A program made the position numbers and the translations under genes. Under the pieces are notes generated by a model. That model had not been told where the DNA came from, did no database searches, and worked only from the letters and a program-made list of their open reading frames with translations. Below are positions 3,695 to 36,601 of a stretch of DNA of 36,626 nt, in pieces. Location: the IMG/VR virus record IMGVR_UViG_3300034073_004938, positions 1-36,626 of that record. One strand, 5' to 3'. Within the stretch, counting starts at the first letter, position 1. Every line of letters begins with the position of its first letter. Source of the DNA: a virus.

Positions 3695-5208
3695 GGAATA
3701 TACCGGTCGTTGGTGCTGCCGTCGCCCGCGTTGTTGCCGGCGCCGGGGGCGGTCACGGTGGCGCCCGAGGCGGCCACGCTGATCTCCTGCCCGATGTTCG
3801 GGAAACCGCCGAAGAACTCGGTTCGGCGGCGCTCGGCGCAGGCGTTGAAGCTGCGGTTGCAGCCGCGCTCGATCACGAAGGTATCGCCGCTGGCCGGGGC
3901 CACGGGCAGGGCGCGTTCCAGCACCACGCTGCCGTTCCAGCTTTCCTTGATCACCCGGCTTACGTTGCGGAGCGCCGCGGTGGTCGTGGCCGCGCCAAAG
4001 GTGATGCGGCCGGCGCGCCAGTAATGCCGACCGGCGGCGTAGGCCTCCACGGTTTCCAGCGCGGGCACCCAGTGGCCGACGGCCCAGCGGGACCGCAGGC
4101 ACAGCTTCCAGTAGCGGGCGCTGCTGGCGTGGGGAATCAGTGCCTCGCCCACGGTCTGCCCAGCGCCCTCATTGGCCGGCATCTCAAAGTCCAGCTCGTG
4201 GGTGTAGGTCGTGGCGTCGGGGCTGCTGTGGAACTGCCACAGGCGCGGCATCGTCTCGCGGCCGAGGTTGGCGACCGAGGTAAGCCGCCAGACCTTGGGC
4301 GTCACGGCGCTGCCGAAATCAATCCGCAGGTTGGGGTTCAGCAGGGGGTTCTTCCGCCCTTCCTCCGCGCTGGGGATTTCCCAGTAACCTTGCACGCAAT
4401 CGCCCCAGTTCGAACGGGAGGTGCTGAGCTGCCAGCTCGATGCCTCGGACGACTTAACCCGGTAGCCTTCGAAGCCGGTCTGGCTGCTGCTGGCGGTGAA
4501 GTCGCCGCTGGCCAGCGCATTGACCAGGTCGGTGCCGTAGCTGCCCGTGCTGTCGTCCTCGGTCAGGCCGCTGCTATTGACCGTGGTGGTGGTGCTGCCG
4601 GATCCACAGGTCTTGGCCTTGTAATGGTCGACGTGGAACCGCATGGCCCCGCAGCCGTCATCGGCCCACTTGAACCGGCAGGCGCTGTGGAAGGTGTCGC
4701 GGGGCAACTGCACGGTGAACGTGCCGAGGTCCGACGAGCAGGCCAGCGCGACGCTTTGCAGGCTGACCGCGGCGCTGTTCACCCGGCCGCTGAAGAGCGT
4801 GGTGCAATCGTCGGCGGTGAGGGTGCTGCTGCTGGTGGTGGGCACCTTGCGGATGACGAGCCGGGCGCGGCGCCAATCCACGGCGGCCAACATGTCGGCC
4901 CACTCGCCGGTCACGTTGCTGAAGGTCACCGTGAGGCGGTCGTCCTTGGACTGGCCGCTGCTCCGTGCCGAGTCGCGGGTGACCGGCCAGGCAATGTAAG
5001 TGGCGGCGTCGCCCTGGGTGCCGGTGGGTTCGGGTTCGGTCTGCGGGGTGAAGAAGGCGAGGTTGCCCGAGTAATTGGCGACCCTCAGGACGTCGGTGGT
5101 GCCAAACGGCGTGGTGATGCTCGCGGGCAGGTAAACGTCGTAGATCTCCGCCCAGCCGCTGGTGAGCGCGGCGGCCTCGGTCGAGACGGGTGACGTGAGC
5201 GTCTTCAT
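3691..5208 (-). CDS. tail hub protein, lambda L / BR0599-DUF2163 like, with inserted discoidin-like domain
   Basis: A 505-residue protein. It carries the cysteine signature of the L/BR0599 group. Cys177, Cys186 and Cys201 lie in ACRFKW..DGCG....C, and the C-terminal motif GCNRSFNAC plus FFGGFPNIG (Cys450, Cys457, residues 467-473) is close to the family hallmark. Between these parts, residues about 220-390 form an extra segment whose pattern (WRLTS, LWQFHSSPD, YWKLCLRS) resembles F5/8 type C (discoidin) sugar-binding domains. The protein is likely the hub joining tail tube and tip, with the insert displayed outward. Its start is preceded by an intergenic repeat zone. Confidence 0.72.
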   Translation of the reverse strand: MKTLTSPVSTEAAALTSGWAEIYDVYLPASITTPFGTTDVLRVANYSGNLAFFTPQTEPEPTGTQGDAATYIAWPVTRDSARSSGQSKDDRLTVTFSNVTGEWADMLAAVDWRRARLVIRKVPTTSSSTLTADDCTTLFSGRVNSAAVSLQSVALACSSDLGTFTVQLPRDTFHSACRFKWADDGCGAMRFHVDHYKAKTCGSGSTTTTVNSSGLTEDDSTGSYGTDLVNALASGDFTASSSQTGFEGYRVKSSEASSWQLSTSRSNWGDCVQGYWEIPSAEEGRKNPLLNPNLRIDFGSAVTPKVWRLTSVANLGRETMPRLWQFHSSPDATTYTHELDFEMPANEGAGQTVGEALIPHASSARYWKLCLRSRWAVGHWVPALETVEAYAAGRHYWRAGRITFGAATTTAALRNVSRVIKESWNGSVVLERALPVAPASGDTFVIERGCNRSFNACAERRRTEFFGGFPNIGQEISVAASGATVTAPGAGNNAGDGSTNDRYIP

Positions 5209-30068: not shown

Positions 30069-30361
30069 GCGCGCGGGATCTGGGGTTGGCCGTTGCTCTC
30101 GTGTTGCTTGCAGAAGTCGGTGGCGCAGGGCGTGGGCCAGCGGGTCACCAGGTTGCCGGCGCCGGCGCCGCGATCTTGCAGGAAGATTTTCGGCTCGCGG
30201 TTGCGGAACTCGCCGCGCGGCAGCACGGTGGCCCCCACGACCTTGGCCGTGATGGCATCGTTGCGGACCCACCACTTGCACGTGGAGCACGGAGCCGGGA
30301 GCGCAGAAGCAGGGAGCACCGAGCTGGGAGCGGGGAGCCGGAAAAGGGACGAGAGCTTCAC
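30065..30361 (-). CDS. small cysteine-containing protein with repeat-derived N-terminus
   Basis: A 98-residue protein with a GTG start (30361) overlapping the MuB stop (GTGA). Residues 8-27 are a GGAGC-repeat translation (PAPSSVLPASALPAPCS). The remainder, CKWWVRNDAITAKVVGATVLPRGEFRNREPKIFLQDRGAGAGN and CATDFC, contains four cysteines that could bind zinc. An original start downstream may have been replaced when the repeat entered. It is co-translated with MuB. Confidence 0.5.
   Translation of the reverse strand: MKLSSLFRLPAPSSVLPASALPAPCSTCKWWVRNDAITAKVVGATVLPRGEFRNREPKIFLQDRGAGAGNLVTRWPTPCATDFCKQHESNGQPQIPRA
30280..30352. repeat. GGAGC-type repeat at the start of the 98-residue gene
   Basis: Units such as GGAGCACGGAGCCGGGAGCG and GGGAGCACCGAGCTGGGAGC encode its Pro/Ala/Ser-rich N-terminus. 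Confidence 0.75.
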
Positions 30362-31449
30362 AGGTCACCTCCGATCTTTTCGAGTTGGCGGCGGCCGGCG
30401 TCGGCCAGCAGGACGTGTTTCCAGTCGAGGCGTTGCTTGCGTTTGCCGGCGAGCGCGCTGGCCATGCGCAGGACGGTGAGCCACATGCCCAGGGCTTCCT
30501 CGCTGAGCACCTTGGTCTGGAGCGCGAGGGCGTCGCCTTCCGCGGGGTCGAGGCCGTAGTGGGCCGCGAATTGGTTGAGGTCCTTGCGCGGCGGCGTGGG
30601 GGGCAGCACGAGGTTGTAGAGCCGGCGGCGGCGCGTCTGCTCCATGAGCTTGCTGAACTCGCTGCGGTCGTCGTCCAGGGCGCGGTTGAGCAGCCGGGTG
30701 GCGCTCAGGATCACGCCGCACTTCCGCGCGTCGTAGAGTTCCCGGATGAATTCCAGGGTTCGGATGCTGACCGCGCTGCCGCCCTTGATCGGCAGGCAGC
30801 GGTCCACCTCGTCGACGATCAGCAGCATGCGGTCGTCAAAGGCGCGGATGATGCGGTCGCGGATCGTGCTGCTCTTGCTGTCGCCGATGTTCAGGGCGTC
30901 GCGCAGGGCATTGATGAAGTTGCCCAGGCTGCCGCCCACCGGCATCTCGACCTTGCGGGTGGTGCCGTGGTTGTGGGTGCGGGTGTAGTGGTCGAGCGAG
31001 GCGGTCTTGCCGATCTGCGTGTCGCCGATGATGAGGGAGATTTTCTGGAACTCGCGGGTCTGGTCGCACACGGCCTCGACCTTTTTGTAGAGGCTGGTCT
31101 CGATGAACTCCACGGCGCGGCTGGTGGCGCGGCGTTCGGCCAGCTCGAGGAACTCGCCGAGGACACGGCAGACTTCGCCGAGGTCGCCCGCGTAGTCATT
31201 GCGCAGCACGCGGCTGAGGGTGCTGGCGCTGTAGCCGCTCTTCTCGGCCAGTTCCTCCAGCGTGAGGTTGTGCTGGTGGCCGAACTCATTGAGCCGGCGG
31301 ATGGTGCTGCGCTGGTCGTCGGGGAGGTGCTGCGTGGCCACGTAGACGACGTCGCCGGCAAACCGCCAGCGGCGGGTGGTGTCGCGCGCCTCGCGGGCGG
31401 CGCTCATGGCGTCGGCCGAGGGCGGGGGGGTCTTGGTTTCTTGCTGCAT
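30358..31449 (-). CDS. MuB-like AAA+ transposition activator
   Basis: A 363-residue protein. Residues 50-90 hold a helix-turn-helix (LNEFGHQHNLTLEELAEKSGYSASTLSRVLRND), as in Mu B. Walker A is GDTQIGKT (142-149), preceded by the hydrophobic strand ISLII. Walker B is MLLIVDEVD (208-216), and an SATRL sensor region lies near residue 252. The C-terminus has a helical domain. It would deliver target DNA to the transposase and give target immunity. It lies directly downstream of the transposase gene. Its length and domain order suit a MuB relative of the larger type. Confidence 0.85.
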   Translation of the reverse strand: MQQETKTPPPSADAMSAAREARDTTRRWRFAGDVVYVATQHLPDDQRSTIRRLNEFGHQHNLTLEELAEKSGYSASTLSRVLRNDYAGDLGEVCRVLGEFLELAERRATSRAVEFIETSLYKKVEAVCDQTREFQKISLIIGDTQIGKTASLDHYTRTHNHGTTRKVEMPVGGSLGNFINALRDALNIGDSKSSTIRDRIIRAFDDRMLLIVDEVDRCLPIKGGSAVSIRTLEFIRELYDARKCGVILSATRLLNRALDDDRSEFSKLMEQTRRRRLYNLVLPPTPPRKDLNQFAAHYGLDPAEGDALALQTKVLSEEALGMWLTVLRMASALAGKRKQRLDWKHVLLADAGRRQLEKIGGDL

Positions 31450-31487: not shown

Positions 31488-33353
31488 TCAGACCAGTTCG
31501 GCCAGGAGATCGACGGCCTCGGCCTCGGGCTCGCGGGAGCGCGGGCGGGGCGCGGGTTCGAGGAGGTCGGCCAGGGCCTCGGGGCCCAGCTCGCGGACGC
31601 GGCGGGCGGTGGCCTGCCGCTCGGCGGTGCGCTCCTCGGTGCGGGCAATGGCGGCGCGAAGTTCCTCACCCACCGCGGCGGTCTGCCGGTCGACGGCGCA
31701 GGGAGCGCCGAGCGGGGAGCCGGGAGCTTCGAGCGGGGAGCACGGAGCGGGGAGCACGGGGCTCGGAGCGGCGCGGCGGGTGAGGTAAGGGGTGAGGGTG
31801 CGGACCTCGGTCGCAACGAAGCGGCGCTCGGCGGTCTTGCGGGCGGCTTCGTCGCTGAGCTGCTCGTCGGTGGCGTCGAAGGCGTCAATCGGGCCAAAGC
31901 TCTTGGCGATGCCGAGGAACTTCCGCGAGAGGCTCAGGAGCACGGCGTCGGCCTCGGGCCGGTGGTCGTTCCAATACACGATGACCTTGGCTCCGCGCAG
32001 GGGGGTGAGCAGCTCGGGATTGTCCCACCGGAAGCTCCGCCGCTTGGGGCCGGAGCCACGGGTGAGCAGCAGGCCGTTGCGCGTAACGGCGACCAGGTCC
32101 ATCGCGCTGCGGTAAAGCCACCGGGCCGAGTCGGGCAGGAACCGGAGACGCTCGGCGGCGCCATCCTCGATCCACTTTTGGTCGGGGCTGAGGCCGCGGC
32201 AGATGGTGCCGTCGTTGCGCTCCTGGTTGAGGTTGCCCATGACCTCCCAGATGTGGGTGGCGAGCTGGTCGTTGCGGAGCAGGAATTCGGAGGGGTGCAG
32301 CTTGCCAGACTTCGCGGCCTGGAGCTTGGCCTTGAGCGCCTCGGGCATCTGCTTGCGCTGGTCGCGCCCCGCCCAGCCGGGCACGAGGTCCATGGCGCGC
32401 TGCAAGCCGTTGAACATGCCCTCGATCTGCTTCGAGCGGGGGTCGTAGCTCCGCCGCATGTCGAGGCCGAGGCTGCGGAGGCCGCCGATGCGGTCGTCGT
32501 CGCTCAGGCCGGTGCGGTGGCCAATGACCGCGTTGGCCTGCCAGTGGCCGCCTTCCAGGACCATTCCCCGGTGGGGCAAACCGGCGCTGTCGAAGGTGTC
32601 GCCGAACAGGCCCCAGATGTCGTCGGCGGCGTTGTATTGGCCACCGTCGCGGATGATCAGGCGGAGGTTGAGCCAACGGAGGGAGCAGATGTCGGCGACC
32701 GGGAGCAACTGCGCCTGGGCAATGCGCCAGCCGAACTCGGCGGTGGGATCATCCACCCAGCAGAGGACGTTGCTCGTCATGTCGTCGGCCACGAACCAGT
32801 CGCCGGCCTTGTGGGCGCTGTAATCGCGCTCGGTGAAGCGGCCATCGAGCCGGGCCGCGCGGTGCCCTTGCAGCCGGGCGGTGAGCAGGGGCGAGGACTT
32901 GAGCGCCTTGCCGATGCTCTTGGGCACGTGTGACTTGCTGGCAAACGCCTGGTGAACGTGCAGCCGGGCGTCGGCGCTGAGGTCGTCGCGCAGGGTGAGG
33001 CGGCGGAAGGCAAAGGCCGCGCTGCCGCTCTCCTGGGCGGCGGCGCGGGCCGCGAAGAGTTGTTCCTCGGTGAGGGCCGCGGCGGCGGGTTTGCGCCCCA
33101 CCACGCCGCGTTTCTGGTCCACCAATCCGTCGAGCCCGTGGGCGGCGTGCCGCGCCACAAACACGCGGAGCCGGCCGGGGCTCATGGTGAGGCCGCTCTC
33201 ATGCACGAGCCCGCAGGCGGCTTGCAGGGCCGCTTCCTTGCCCAGGCCGCCGGCTTGCAGGGCGGCAAATTGGCCGACGAACCATTCGCGGGCGAGGGCC
33301 TTGGCGGCGGCGCGACTGCCGGCGACGGCGGAGAACGTGACGGAGGGATTCAT
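31488..33353 (-). CDS. MuA-like DDE transposase
   Basis: A 621-residue protein starting at ATG 33353, overlapping the stop of the 92-residue gene. Residues 1-130 form the helix-turn-helix DNA-binding domains. The catalytic core has Asp190/191 in GDWFVADDMTSNVL and Glu311 in DPRSKQIEGMF. The residue at the middle catalytic place appears to be Glu267 in MVLEGGHWQANAV, where Asp is usual. A beta-barrel domain follows (PLRGAKVIVYWNDHRP). Residues 527-552 are a GGAGC-repeat translation between barrel and C-terminal helical domain (VGEELRAAIARTEERTAER). It cuts and joins the element ends. Confidence 0.88.
   Translation of the reverse strand: MNPSVTFSAVAGSRAAAKALAREWFVGQFAALQAGGLGKEAALQAACGLVHESGLTMSPGRLRVFVARHAAHGLDGLVDQKRGVVGRKPAAAALTEEQLFAARAAAQESGSAAFAFRRLTLRDDLSADARLHVHQAFASKSHVPKSIGKALKSSPLLTARLQGHRAARLDGRFTERDYSAHKAGDWFVADDMTSNVLCWVDDPTAEFGWRIAQAQLLPVADICSLRWLNLRLIIRDGGQYNAADDIWGLFGDTFDSAGLPHRGMVLEGGHWQANAVIGHRTGLSDDDRIGGLRSLGLDMRRSYDPRSKQIEGMFNGLQRAMDLVPGWAGRDQRKQMPEALKAKLQAAKSGKLHPSEFLLRNDQLATHIWEVMGNLNQERNDGTICRGLSPDQKWIEDGAAERLRFLPDSARWLYRSAMDLVAVTRNGLLLTRGSGPKRRSFRWDNPELLTPLRGAKVIVYWNDHRPEADAVLLSLSRKFLGIAKSFGPIDAFDATDEQLSDEAARKTAERRFVATEVRTLTPYLTRRAAPSPVLPAPCSPLEAPGSPLGAPCAVDRQTAAVGEELRAAIARTEERTAERQATARRVRELGPEALADLLEPAPRPRSREPEAEAVDLLAELV
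31690..31770. repeat. GGAGC-type repeat in the transposase linker
   Basis: Repeated GGAGC units encode SPVLPAPCSPLEAPGSPLGA and adjacent residues between the catalytic/barrel part and the C-terminal domain of the transposase. Confidence 0.8.
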
Positions 33354-33628
33354 CGGAAAGTGGCGGGGAGGCAGAGAGGGTGGGACTCGGACAGGTGAAG
33401 CCGTTGCTGGGCGTAACCGGCGGCCCAAAGGTCCACTTGGTGCCAGACTTCGCGGGCGGCGGGGTCGGCGGTGAGCCGGGATTCCAGGCGGGCCATTTCC
33501 CGGAGTTCAGTCAGGGCGGCCAGGGCGATGAGCACGGTCGCCGACGGGCCACGCCCAGTCCTTGTGCCCGCGGGCTTGCGCGGCGCGGCATCCGGGGTGC
33601 GGACGTTGGCGGTTTGGGGACTGGGCAT
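33350..33628 (-). CDS. small early protein upstream of transposase
   Basis: A 92-residue protein with ATG 33628 (an upstream TTG is less likely). The N-terminus is basic and Pro/Thr-rich. The C-terminal helix-rich part (SATVLIALAALTELREMARLESRL, VDLWAAGYAQQRL) is compact. It overlaps the transposase start by 4 bases. Function not recognised; in Mu-type phages this place often holds an Ner-like regulator, but I see no helix-turn-helix. Confidence 0.55.
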   Translation of the reverse strand: MPSPQTANVRTPDAAPRKPAGTRTGRGPSATVLIALAALTELREMARLESRLTADPAAREVWHQVDLWAAGYAQQRLHLSESHPLCLPATFR

Positions 33629-33646: not shown

Positions 33647-34048
33647 TTAGCAGGCGTTGACGTTGCGGTAGGGCACCGGGGAAAACCCGAACCGGCGGGG
33701 GCTGGCCAGGGCGCGGTTCAAGGGCGCATTCACCGTGTCGCGATTGTGAATCCCGGTGAGGGCGCGGAGGCGGTCCACGACACGGTTGAGACGGGCGCGG
33801 AGGGCGGGGTCGCGGGTCAGCTCGGCCTCGATGTCGCCGGTGGCCTGGGTGAGGTAGCTGAGGCTGAGGCCGGTGGCCTCGGCAAACTCGCGGCAACGGC
33901 ACAGGCTGAGCTTCCAGACGACCCAGGCATGGATGCGCCGGGCGCGGCTCAGCTCGTGGGTGGCGCCGCTGGCGATCTGCTCGGGCGTGAGGCCCAGCTC
34001 GGCGGCGACCGCTTGGCGGGCCTGGAGGATGAGGGCGGGGATGTTCAT
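33647..34048 (-). CDS. DnaA domain IV-like helix-turn-helix protein
   Basis: A 133-residue protein starting at ATG 34048. The central SRARRIHAWVVWKLSLCRCREFAEATGLSLSYLTQATGDIEAELTRDPALRARLNRVVDRL matches the domain IV pattern of DnaA-like C-terminal modules (S.SR..RI..A...A.......EIA...GLS....T.....I...L..D..L...I..L). It lacks any ATPase part. In phages such proteins may recruit or inhibit host replication initiation, or act as sequence-specific DNA-binding factors. It lies just upstream of the transposase set. Confidence 0.65.
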   Translation of the reverse strand: MNIPALILQARQAVAAELGLTPEQIASGATHELSRARRIHAWVVWKLSLCRCREFAEATGLSLSYLTQATGDIEAELTRDPALRARLNRVVDRLRALTGIHNRDTVNAPLNRALASPRRFGFSPVPYRNVNAC

Positions 34049-34072
34049 GACGGGCAAAAGGAAGGCTGCCGG

Positions 34073-34813
34073 TTACGGTTCCTGGGCGGTGGTCCCGGTG
34101 CGTCCCGAAGAGGGTTCACCGGCAGCGGTGGGCGACGTCGCGGGGAGGTCCGTCGCTTGAAGATTGGCCCGGGCGTCGCGCACCTTGGCGAGGGCGGCGG
34201 TGAGCTGGGTTTCGAGGTCGGCGAGCTTGGTGCCGTCGAGCTTGTCCACGGGCACCCGGTCAATCGCGCCCAGGGAGCGCAGTCCGTGCAGGCTCAGTTC
34301 CCAGTTGAACTCGATCTGCCGGGGCTCGGTATTGCCCTTGGCGGCGCGGGCCTTGGCGGCGGCGTATTGCACCGCATCGTGCTCGCCAAACTTGCGGAAG
34401 ACGCGCAGCTCGCGGGCCAGCTCGGTGAAGTTGGCGGCGGACTGGATCACGACCGTCTCGGCGGCATCGCGCAGGGCGGCGTCGGCGAGTTCGCGGTTGG
34501 TCAGCTCGTAGCTTTTGACCTGCTCGGCCGTGAGCTTCTTTTTCTCGGCGATGACCGAGACGAGGGCGTCCTCGGCGAACTGGATGTAGGCCCGGACGGT
34601 GCGGTAACTGATCTTGGTCTCAAACTCGGCGGTAATGTCTTCCCACTCGCCGTGTTGGCAGGCGTTGCGAGCCTGGAGGAGGAACCAGCCGGTGATGATG
34701 GCGGCATTCTTGGCCTTGTGCAGGAAGCCCTCGGTTTCCTGGTGGCTCTTGATCGCCTGCTGGAACCAGGCGGATGGGTTGGCTTTGGTCGGTGATTTTG
34801 CGGGGGATGACAT
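34073..34813 (-). CDS. DUF3102-like protein
   Basis: A 246-residue protein starting at ATG 34813 (MSSPAKSPTKA), the start region duplicated at 35052. Residues 20-95 (WFQQAIKSHQETEGFLHKAKNAAIITGWFLLQARNACQHGEWEDITAEFETKISYRTVRAYIQFAEDAL) follow the DUF3102 pattern (A...G..L..A+..+.HG.W..W......S.RTA..YM..A). The middle is helical and the C-terminus disordered and Pro/Thr/Ala-rich. DUF3102 proteins are common in phages and plasmids, with a presumed DNA-related role. It is the second gene of the leftward early operon. Confidence 0.7.
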   Translation of the reverse strand: MSSPAKSPTKANPSAWFQQAIKSHQETEGFLHKAKNAAIITGWFLLQARNACQHGEWEDITAEFETKISYRTVRAYIQFAEDALVSVIAEKKKLTAEQVKSYELTNRELADAALRDAAETVVIQSAANFTELARELRVFRKFGEHDAVQYAAAKARAAKGNTEPRQIEFNWELSLHGLRSLGAIDRVPVDKLDGTKLADLETQLTAALAKVRDARANLQATDLPATSPTAAGEPSSGRTGTTAQEP

Positions 34814-34818
34814 AGGTG
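34785..34818. repeat. duplicated translation-initiation region, copy A
   Basis: GCTTTGGTCGGTGATTTTGC followed by GGGGGATGACATAGGTG is repeated at about 35020-35057 with a single mismatch. It includes the start codon (CAT) and the ACCTATG context, so two adjacent genes have the same first residues MSSPAK(S/T)PTKA. Confidence 0.85.
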
Positions 34819-34839: not shown

Positions 34840-35052
34840 TCACCAGACGGGGAGGCCGTTGACCCGGTAAGGTTGGCGGGCGAATTCGAGAGCCTCCCGG
34901 CCGTAGCGTTTGCGAAGATATTCTGCCACCTCGGCGGCTTGGAACCGGCTGAGGGCGCCACCGGCTTGGGTGTAGACCTCAGCGGCTACACGCCTGAGGG
35001 ATGACAATTTCGGGCTGGCGGCTTTGGTCGGTGTTTTTGCGGGGGATGACAT
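34840..35052 (-). CDS. small early protein with duplicated start region
   Basis: A 70-residue protein. The first 11 residues (MSSPAKTPTKA) repeat those of the DUF3102-like protein. The rest (KLSSLRRVAAEVYTQAGGALSRFQAAEVAEYLRKRYGREALEFARQPYRVNG) is helical and strongly basic. Function unknown. Confidence 0.6.
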   Translation of the reverse strand: MSSPAKTPTKAASPKLSSLRRVAAEVYTQAGGALSRFQAAEVAEYLRKRYGREALEFARQPYRVNGLPVW

Positions 35053-35057
35053 AGGTG
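35018..35057. repeat. duplicated translation-initiation region, copy B
   Basis: The second copy of the 34785-34818 duplication. The end of this copy is the start of the first leftward gene after the RHH regulator. Confidence 0.85.
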
Positions 35058-35060
35058 TTT

Positions 35061-35195
35061 CTAGCGGGTGATCGTGGCCAGCTTTTCGCGGATGGCGTTG
35101 CGGCCGAACTTCGAGCGGTCCGTGTCGAGGTGCGCGACCGCGTGGTCCATCGCCAGAGCCAGGGACTCCGGGAGCTTCATGGTCACGACCACCAT
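35061..35195 (-). CDS. ribbon-helix-helix regulator (leftward, Ner/Cro-like place)
   Basis: A 44-residue core from ATG 35195 (MVVVTMKLPESLALAMDHAV, then RSKFGRNAIREKLATITR). The strand VVVTMKLPESL, helix, and SKFGRNAIREKL helix are the MetJ/Arc-type ribbon-helix-helix. A GTG at 35231 would add a basic arm (RRKRQKQTPEK). It is the first gene of the leftward early operon, facing the second RHH gene. It is likely a repressor or anti-repressor of the lysis/lysogeny choice. Confidence 0.72.
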   Translation of the reverse strand: MVVVTMKLPESLALAMDHAVAHLDTDRSKFGRNAIREKLATITR

Positions 35196-35238
35196 CTTTT
35201 CGGGGGTCTGTTTTTGGCGCTTGCGTCGCACGGCAAAA

Positions 35239-35267
35239 GGAATACTGGGTATTACCCGATATGTCAA
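35239..35267 (-). promoter_or_regulatory. leftward early promoter with internal operator
   Basis: On the minus strand TTGACA (35267-35262), a 17-base spacer and TATTCC (35244-35239). The -35 box is consensus. The spacer contains the palindrome GGGTAATACCC. This should drive the early operon from the RHH gene onward. Confidence 0.65.
35247..35257. promoter_or_regulatory. operator palindrome GGGTA-T-TACCC
   Basis: Perfect 5-bp arms around a single centre base. It lies in the spacer of the leftward promoter and overlaps a possible -10 (TATTAC, 35250-35255) of a rightward promoter. Proteins bound here could block both directions. Confidence 0.65.
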
Positions 35268-35314
35268 CCGACTTGTTTCAAGAATTGTTTCCGTGGTATC
35301 AGGCTGTGCTGCGA

Positions 35315-35734
35315 ATGGTGGTCGTATCCATGAAGATGCCCGAGAGCCTGCGTGAGCTGGTGGCCAAGACCGATTTGGCCAAGGACCGCGGGGAGGGTTA
35401 CTTCATCCGTGAGGCCGTGGCCGAGAAACTGGCCAAACTGGGCTACGTAGTGGCCGAAGAGGACTGGAAACCGGCGTCCCGGAAGGGCGTGGGCGGCTTC
35501 CCGACGCACCGCAAAAACGCCGATCCGGCGACCGCGGAGGCGGAGTCAAAATGGCAGATCGCTGCCACTTTGTCTGGCGGAGTTAGTGACTTGAAACCGG
35601 TTGAGGAGGCTAATTCGGAGGCCAGTTTCGCTGCGGAAGCGGCGGCAACCTACAAGTTGAAGACCGACCCGGATGCGCGGTCGAAGGCCGCGATGCAAAA
35701 GTCGGGGAAGATCATCAAGAAAGGCAAAGCATGA
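35315..35734 (+). CDS. ribbon-helix-helix repressor candidate (rightward)
   Basis: A 139-residue protein from ATG 35315 (ATG 35261 gives 18 more residues and would suit a leaderless mRNA). Residues 1-50 (MVVVSMKMPESLRELVAKTD, GYFIREAVAEKLAKLGY) are a ribbon-helix-helix similar to the leftward regulator, so the two are paralogues. The C-terminal part is longer, with WQIAATLSGGVSDLKPVEEAN and a basic end (KSGKIIKKGK). It is the first gene of a rightward, probably lysogenic, operon. It replaces the Mu c repressor in position. The start overlaps the next gene (ATGA). Confidence 0.72.
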   Translation: MVVVSMKMPESLRELVAKTDLAKDRGEGYFIREAVAEKLAKLGYVVAEEDWKPASRKGVGGFPTHRKNADPATAEAESKWQIAATLSGGVSDLKPVEEANSEASFAAEAAATYKLKTDPDARSKAAMQKSGKIIKKGKA

Positions 35735-36156
35735 AGACGATCCTGGGAATGTGGCTGGCGGTGGTGTTGTGCGGCTGTGCGGCGACGAAAATGCCGACGG
35801 AGAGCGGGCGGCCGGAGGTGGTGTTGCCCGGGACGGTGGCGGAGGTGAAGCCGCGCCTGGTGGCGGCCGTCTTGGCGAAGGGTTACACGGTCACGGCGTC
35901 GGACGATCTCCGCGTGGTGGCCGAAAAGGACGCGGGCATCGGCGCCGCCGTGGCCATGAGCCTGGGCACGGGCGCCAGCTCGGACGGCGCGGCGCGGACC
36001 CGGGCGCAGTTCACGCTGCTGCCGGTGCCCGCCGGGACGCGCGTGGTCGCGGATCTGTGGCTGGTGAACCGCACCTTGGGCGGGGAGAACGCCGTTCCCC
36101 AGGAAGGGAGCCGTGCGCGGACTTCGTTGCAGTCGTTCCTCACGGGTTTGCGGTGA
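35731..36156 (+). CDS. lipoprotein coupled to the repressor, superinfection-exclusion candidate
   Basis: A 141-residue protein with a lipoprotein signal peptide (MKTILGMWLAVVLCGCAAT). Cys16 is the presumed lipidated residue, in LCGC. The mature part is a globular alpha/beta-like sequence (VEVKPRLVAAVLAKGYTVT is described at residues 38-55) resembling small periplasmic lipoproteins of unknown function. It shares ATGA with the repressor candidate, so it is made during lysogeny. Prophage-encoded surface lipoproteins of this kind in other phages block superinfection; that role here is inference. Confidence 0.65.
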   Translation: MKTILGMWLAVVLCGCAATKMPTESGRPEVVLPGTVAEVKPRLVAAVLAKGYTVTASDDLRVVAEKDAGIGAAVAMSLGTGASSDGAARTRAQFTLLPVPAGTRVVADLWLVNRTLGGENAVPQEGSRARTSLQSFLTGLR

Positions 36157-36363
36157 TCAATTCCCCCTGATCTGGCGGGCGGGGAGCGGGGCGAGGGCGG
36201 GCCTGGGTGTGGGCGCTCGGCGGCGGAGGATTGCGGCACTCACGCGGAGCTGGCGCGCCCAGCGGGTGAGCTTGCGCGCCAGGAGCAGGCGGGCCGCCGG
36301 GGTCAGGTCGCCGGCGATGGCTTCCAGGTCGGGTTCCAGGCGCACAAAGGGGCTCGGGTGCAT
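36157..36363 (-). CDS. small terminal gene facing the lipoprotein
   Basis: A 68-residue protein from ATG 36363 (an ATG at 36453 would give 98). Central helix LTPAARLLLARKLTRWARQLRVSAAIL, then a basic Pro/Arg-rich end. Its stop adjoins the lipoprotein stop (36154-36156 and 36157-36159), so the two are convergent with no gap. No family recognised. It is the last gene before the end. Confidence 0.5.
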   Translation of the reverse strand: MHPSPFVRLEPDLEAIAGDLTPAARLLLARKLTRWARQLRVSAAILRRRAPTPRPALAPLPARQIRGN

Positions 36364-36467
36364 GCCCGGGAATCTGCCCCCGGGGGTCGGACACTGGCAG
36401 GCCCTGGGAACAGCCGGTGAACAAGTCGCCGGCCGGGGTTTTGCAGGGTCCATGCAGGGGCGTTGCC

Positions 36468-36503: not shown

Positions 36504-36601
36504 TTTCACTTTTTTCAACGCAAGCGCCGTTTTGTGAAGCCTAGCGTTTTCGGCCTGTTTCAAGCGTTTTCAACCGTCGCCATGTTTTCACTTTTTTCGC
36601 C
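36504..36601 (-). repeat. right-end array of GAAAA-type transposase sites
   Basis: Read inward from the right end, four related sites occur: GGCGAAAAAAGTGAAAAC (36601-36584), GGTTGAAAACGCTTGAAAC (about 36576-36558), GGCCGAAAACGCTAGG (about 36554-36539) and CGTTGAAAAAAGTGAAAG (36520-36503). The first and fourth share GAAAAAAGTGAAA. The C/TGAAAA core is as in MuA sites. Confidence 0.65.

Follow-up and report, generated by a model that had tools for sequence, protein, structure and literature searches.

A probable lysis-lysogeny switch of two facing ribbon-helix-helix paralogues in a Mu-like prophage

Repressor pairs in described phages and viruses

Phage Mu carries its repressor gene c at the phage end, opposite the early MuA/MuB operon. 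In the Mu-like hankyphage, a gene in the terminal slot encodes RepC, which acts as master repressor (PMC12135933). The immI region of Salmonella phage P22 contains mnt and arc, divergent genes for ribbon-helix-helix (RHH) paralogues with operators between overlapping promoters (PMC11016777, PMC8022706). It is a secondary immunity region, which controls the anti-repressor Ant and lies beside immC, a region based on helix-turn-helix (HTH) proteins (PMC11016777, PMC8022706). For the temperate virus SSV1, the RHH protein F55 was described to control the early genes (PMC9608457).

Here, we analyzed a 36.6-kb virus record, called the window throughout, in which two facing genes at 35061-35734 (A and B) encode RHH paralogues. 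Like P22 immI, the window combines divergent RHH paralogues with a putative operator between them, and Arc was the top structural match of B. In contrast to immI, the pair stands where a transposable phage has its main switch, and is followed by the transposition operon. Control of an anti-repressor gene (ant) as in immI was not observed: a 70-aa ORF and then an early gene follow A, without Ant-like matches. The genome slot is the one used by Mu c/Ner and hankyphage RepC, whose repressors are, however, of the HTH type. With lambda CI/Cro the window shares the proposed logic of two related DNA-binding proteins, one operator and divergent promoters, while its proteins are smaller and of another fold, and B is without a recognizable oligomerization or cleavage domain. 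SSV1 F55 differs as a single RHH regulator of an archaeal virus, no facing paralogue being described in the available text (PMC9608457). The original prediction had regarded a switch of two RHH paralogues as a distinct solution. This held insofar as the pair resides in the slot of HTH pairs and recurs in five further loci, but the solution is not wholly distinct, P22 immI having the same architecture. What differs is the proposed use as primary switch in a transposable phage; a literature search with limited coverage of subscription journals did not find an RHH pair in this role.

Two RHH paralogues around an early promoter

The window shows Mu-like hallmarks, and its minus strand carries nearly all genes. 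Besides the transposition genes (Table 1), a Mu Gp27-like terminase small subunit, a terminase large subunit, a MuF-domain portal, an HK97-type capsid and tail genes are encoded, and the hosts of this Mu-like virus are probably Verrucomicrobia. At the gene-B end, the only clear plus-strand genes are B and the lipoprotein gene after it. The divergent pair is located between the phage end and the early MuA/MuB operon, as in a Mu-like switch; the HTH repressor and Ner of such a switch were not found there, both proteins being RHH.

Table 1. Features of the window around the facing RHH genes.
Feature	Position	Strand	Evidence
MuB/TniB-type ATPase	30358..31449	-	phrog_296
MuA-type transposase, family marker	31488..33428	-	phrog_310, E 7e-23; relatives; tree
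Conserved early gene, after A in the family; bracket of the exchanged block	34073..34813	-	alignment A4 of eight phages; tree
70-aa ORF between A and the early gene	34840..35052	-	first 11 codons same as those of the early gene
Gene A, RHH protein of 56 aa (MRRKRQKQTPEKMVVVTMKLPESLALAMDHAVAHLDTDRSKFGRNAIREKLATITR), opens the early operon in Cro/Ner position	35061..35231	-	ORF; AF2; Foldseek
-10 box TATTCC of the A promoter, 17-bp spacer	35239..35244	-	sequence
Putative operator GGGTATTACCC, GGGTA-T-TACCC, 5-1-5 palindrome, center 35252	35247..35257		sequence
-35 box TTGACA of the A (early) promoter	35262..35267	-	sequence
Gene B, 139 aa, N-terminal RHH core and low-confidence tail of ~95 aa, repressor (c/CI) position	35315..35734	+	ORF; AF2; Foldseek
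Lipoprotein gene, directly downstream of B	35731..36156	+	phrog_3152; BLASTP orthologues in L056, L086, L026

Both ORFs of the predicted divergent pair exist, and their cores read MVVVTMKLPESL and MVVVSMKMPESL as given beforehand. Comparing the two cores by pairwise BLASTP, 43% identity over 42 aa was found (E = 2e-7 for that single comparison); Arc and Mnt share 47.5% over 40 aa. A and B are mutually closest, with 41-44% identity versus at most 28% to any other protein. A probably starts at GTG 35231, by analogy with relatives (loci with L numbers, see below) as a leaderless message, or at ATG 35195 (44 aa), and not at TTG 35267, which was ruled out as it is the -35 box. GTG 35231 lies 36 nt after the start of this box, compared to 36 nt in L096 and 35 nt in L028. 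Since an A-to-(-35) spacing of 35-40 nt recurs in the RHH relatives L028, L081, L083, L096 and L025, the mRNA of A is probably leaderless. For B, ATG 35315 is the more probable start, with ATG 35261 as the alternative.

The RHH fold, initially a guess, was confirmed by AlphaFold2 (AF2) models, Foldseek and a profile search against the PDB. A was modeled with a pLDDT of 91 as a beta-strand followed by helices 10-23 and 27-43, and its top Foldseek matches were RHH proteins (antitoxins, CopG, NikR, PutA, Arc), with single E-values that were weak because the protein is tiny. The B core reached a pLDDT of ~80, the tail being of low confidence, and its top three Foldseek matches were all P22 Arc. 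In both proteins a beta-strand and two helices are found within ~45 aa. A profile of ten family members retrieved 21 sequences from the PDB, all of the RHH/CopG/PutA/antitoxin type (best E 7.5e-4). We are aware that the RHH proteins' own scores against the family HMM are circular, since ten of them were used to build it. Neither A nor B alone gave a Pfam RHH match, and A matched phrog_876 (transcriptional repressor) at E 0.008. Among the relatives, L028B, L081B and L096A scored above the Pfam RHH cut-off; both L028 proteins matched the Arc-like phrog_6506 and both L096 proteins phrog_18157.

Aligned in the register of Arc, A and B of one phage have matching strands, with VVTMKLP/VVSMKMP in the window, PIPIRLD/PIPVRLD in L096 and AVPVRFT/SVPVRFD in L081, and the within-pair similarity exceeded that of permuted pairs (P = 0.004). 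The contact positions of the window proteins are V-T-K (A) versus V-S-K (B). As its strand is nearly the same as that of B, A should read the operator of B.

Regarding the putative operator, the 11-mer GGGTATTACCC is unique in the window, and its center deviates by no more than 1 bp from the midpoint of the A-promoter spacer (35245-35261, TTGACA-17-TATTCC). A 5-1-5 palindrome arises in 9% of shuffles of the 119-nt intergenic stretch (chance 0.09), so that the palindrome by itself is only marginally non-random and not striking; it is noteworthy because of its central position in the spacer. It had been placed in the spacer of one promoter and in a possible -10 box of the other. The first location was found in the sequence, while the opposite -10 box, TATTAC, has no recognizable -35 box and was rejected on this ground; a B promoter was not found. 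Upstream of A, TTGAC was observed at 10 of the 14 switch loci versus 1.1 expected. In L028, L081, L083 and L096, too, repeats resembling operators lie on or next to the A promoter, with P values that are optimistic, because the motifs were spotted by inspection before testing. In L028, a palindrome with 11-bp arms covers the early promoter (P = 0.002); beginning with GGGTAT and ending with ATACCC, it resembles a longer version of the window site. L081 contains GTATAGCA three times (0 of 400 shuffles) and L083 carries copies related to this motif, each of the two loci having a pair of copies beside B with a spacing of exactly 10 bp, and more at the A promoter. In L096, a palindrome with 7-bp arms directly follows TTGACA. 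Overall, these data support the predicted shared promoter-operator between the facing paralogues, with the operator being putative.

RHH and HTH pairs in one genome slot

Searching directly with A or B, nothing was found in viral contigs, INPHARED phages and plasmids, and a single-sequence transposase query did not provide a route to relatives. Because both failed, the Mu-like family was gathered stepwise via portal and MuA alignments. Its hosts include Verrucomicrobia (L027, L028), with a host of the same order for L056; two MAG loci are named differently (Pirellulales, Patescibacteria), possibly owing to misbinning. Nine phages (L018, L021, L024, L026, L027, L056, L079, L080, L086) have a CI-like HTH gene and a small Cro/Ner-like gene facing each other in the slot that lies upstream of the conserved early gene. 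HTH_3 or HTH_31 scored above the Pfam cut-off in 7 of the 9 repressors (L021, L026, L027, L056, L079, L080, L086); the L024 repressor remained below it and the L018 repressor was read by eye. The small A-side partners are HTH-like by alignment, with Pfam E-values of 0.015 or worse.

The same divergent pair, which the original prediction had suggested to look for in other prophages, was found in five further loci (L025, L028, L081, L083, L096/L108), giving six RHH pairs in this slot including the window. Among the six RHH/RHH and nine HTH/HTH loci no mixed pair was observed, an absence that is partly a by-eye result because the small HTH proteins score weakly in Pfam. Without correction for kinship, this distribution has a Fisher probability of 1 in 5005. 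Two loci were left out of this count. L023 contains two overlapping, weak RHH-like ORFs in tandem (3837-4215) instead of a facing pair. In L109 (6066-6458), an RHH repressor-side gene faces a TTGACA promoter, which leads into a 21-aa ORF at the contig end, without an RHH partner. The C-terminal tails of L025, L079 and window B were compared by eye, and a sharing of tails between RHH and HTH repressors is not claimed.

The exchanged block is bracketed on both sides by orthologues, across HTH and RHH types. Lipoproteins encoded next to the HTH repressors of L056, L086 and L026 are orthologues of the one after gene B of the window (BLASTP E-values of 1e-16, 7e-15 and 2e-9), and the early gene after A is common to the family (alignment of eight phages). 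The nearest relative of the window by transposase is L056 (52-54% identical) and by early gene L086, both of the HTH type. Three switch-type changes were counted in the MuA tree (L079 and L082 uncounted, the tandem locus L023 counted as RHH) and five in the early-gene tree, and well-supported branches force at least two exchanges in each of the two trees. A single ancient split of A and B was not supported by the 44-column tree, none of whose branches was starred. We tentatively suggest, as one possible account and short of a favored one, that one phage family has, at least twice, exchanged the whole primary switch, both proteins together with the operator, between two unrelated DNA-binding folds (HTH/HTH and RHH/RHH). 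The partners would share one reading head in each RHH lineage, so that selection would require a matched pair from one ancestor, possibly through separate inverted duplications.

Proposed switch, alternatives and surroundings

We consider it likely that 35061-35734 serves a Mu-like prophage as its primary lysis-lysogeny switch, in which RHH paralogues replace the usual CI/Cro-type HTH pair, with B as repressor and A as the Cro/Ner counterpart. This role is the most likely one because relatives hold an HTH pair in the same slot, the flanks are orthologous and exchanges are forced. For operator binding, the direction of repression and the antagonism between A and B we infer the following course. 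B, transcribed away from the early operon, would be the lysogeny repressor, and its RHH dimer would bind GGGTATTACCC and thereby block the early promoter TTGACA-17-TATTCC. From this promoter the early gene and probably MuA/MuB would be transcribed along with A. As its first product, probably made from a leaderless mRNA, A would read the same operator, autoregulate the early promoter and block B, whose own promoter may be weak, by analogy with lambda PRM.

A variant concerns the last step only: A could form heterodimers with B and so titrate it as a dominant-negative anti-repressor, with no homodimer of A competing for the operator. RHH proteins are obligate dimers, and A and B share the RHH dimer interface and are each other's closest relatives; Arc and Mnt of P22, in contrast, are separate repressors, and we regard this variant as rather unlikely. 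To our knowledge, no divergent RHH pair of a phage other than that of P22 immI has been well studied. As the immI pair is secondary (PMC11016777), the window pair could also be an accessory control of the immI kind, tuning an early or anti-repressor gene, with the main repressor encoded elsewhere. The pair, however, sits exactly in the slot of the HTH pairs, A leads directly into the early operon with MuA, and no second repressor candidate was found beside it in a Pfam scan of part of the window's small ORFs, which renders an accessory role improbable. Although many RHH antitoxins (TacA1, ParD, MazE, VapB) are among the closest structures, a reading of the two genes as antitoxin or partition-regulator cargo unrelated to the switch was discarded as highly improbable, since Pfam and PADLOC showed no toxin or defense gene among the neighbors of A and B as in a type II toxin-antitoxin module, the six loci with the pair have no common toxin, and slot and divergent layout match the HTH switch.

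If the pair indeed acts as the primary switch, CI/Cro logic would be independent of the HTH fold, and a phage could swap the fold of its whole main switch while keeping place and flanking genes. P22 immI would then be an example of a broader class and no longer an oddity. With proteins of 56 and 139 aa and one operator, the window offers a very small set for operator sharing, mixed dimers and the origin of immunity groups.

Several further observations were made around the switch. Opposite to the repressor gene, at 36157-36453 (minus), a small protein with an RW(A/S)RQL-like motif is encoded. Similar small ORFs in relatives (L026 4097-4381, L027 4335-4574, L056 5878-6174) overlap the 3' end of the repressor gene in antisense, and these proteins are possible small regulators. 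In the early region, small genes resembling by eye the DNA-binding domain of DnaA were noted at 33647-34057 (minus), in L018 (847-1290) and in L108 (11095-11502), with no Pfam match for the window gene. An 11-nt inverted repeat (35216/36518) was judged to be due to chance. In an A/T-richer stretch near the window end, TTTCACTTTTTTC is directly repeated at 36504-36516 and 36586-36598, possibly representing transposase sites at the phage end. The 70-aa ORF gave no match in the family search. A 38-nt repeat (34781-34818 and 35020-35057, 97% identical) spans the start codon and first 11 codons of this ORF and the adjoining early gene (MSSPAKxPTKA), as if a new ORF had received a copy of a start region.
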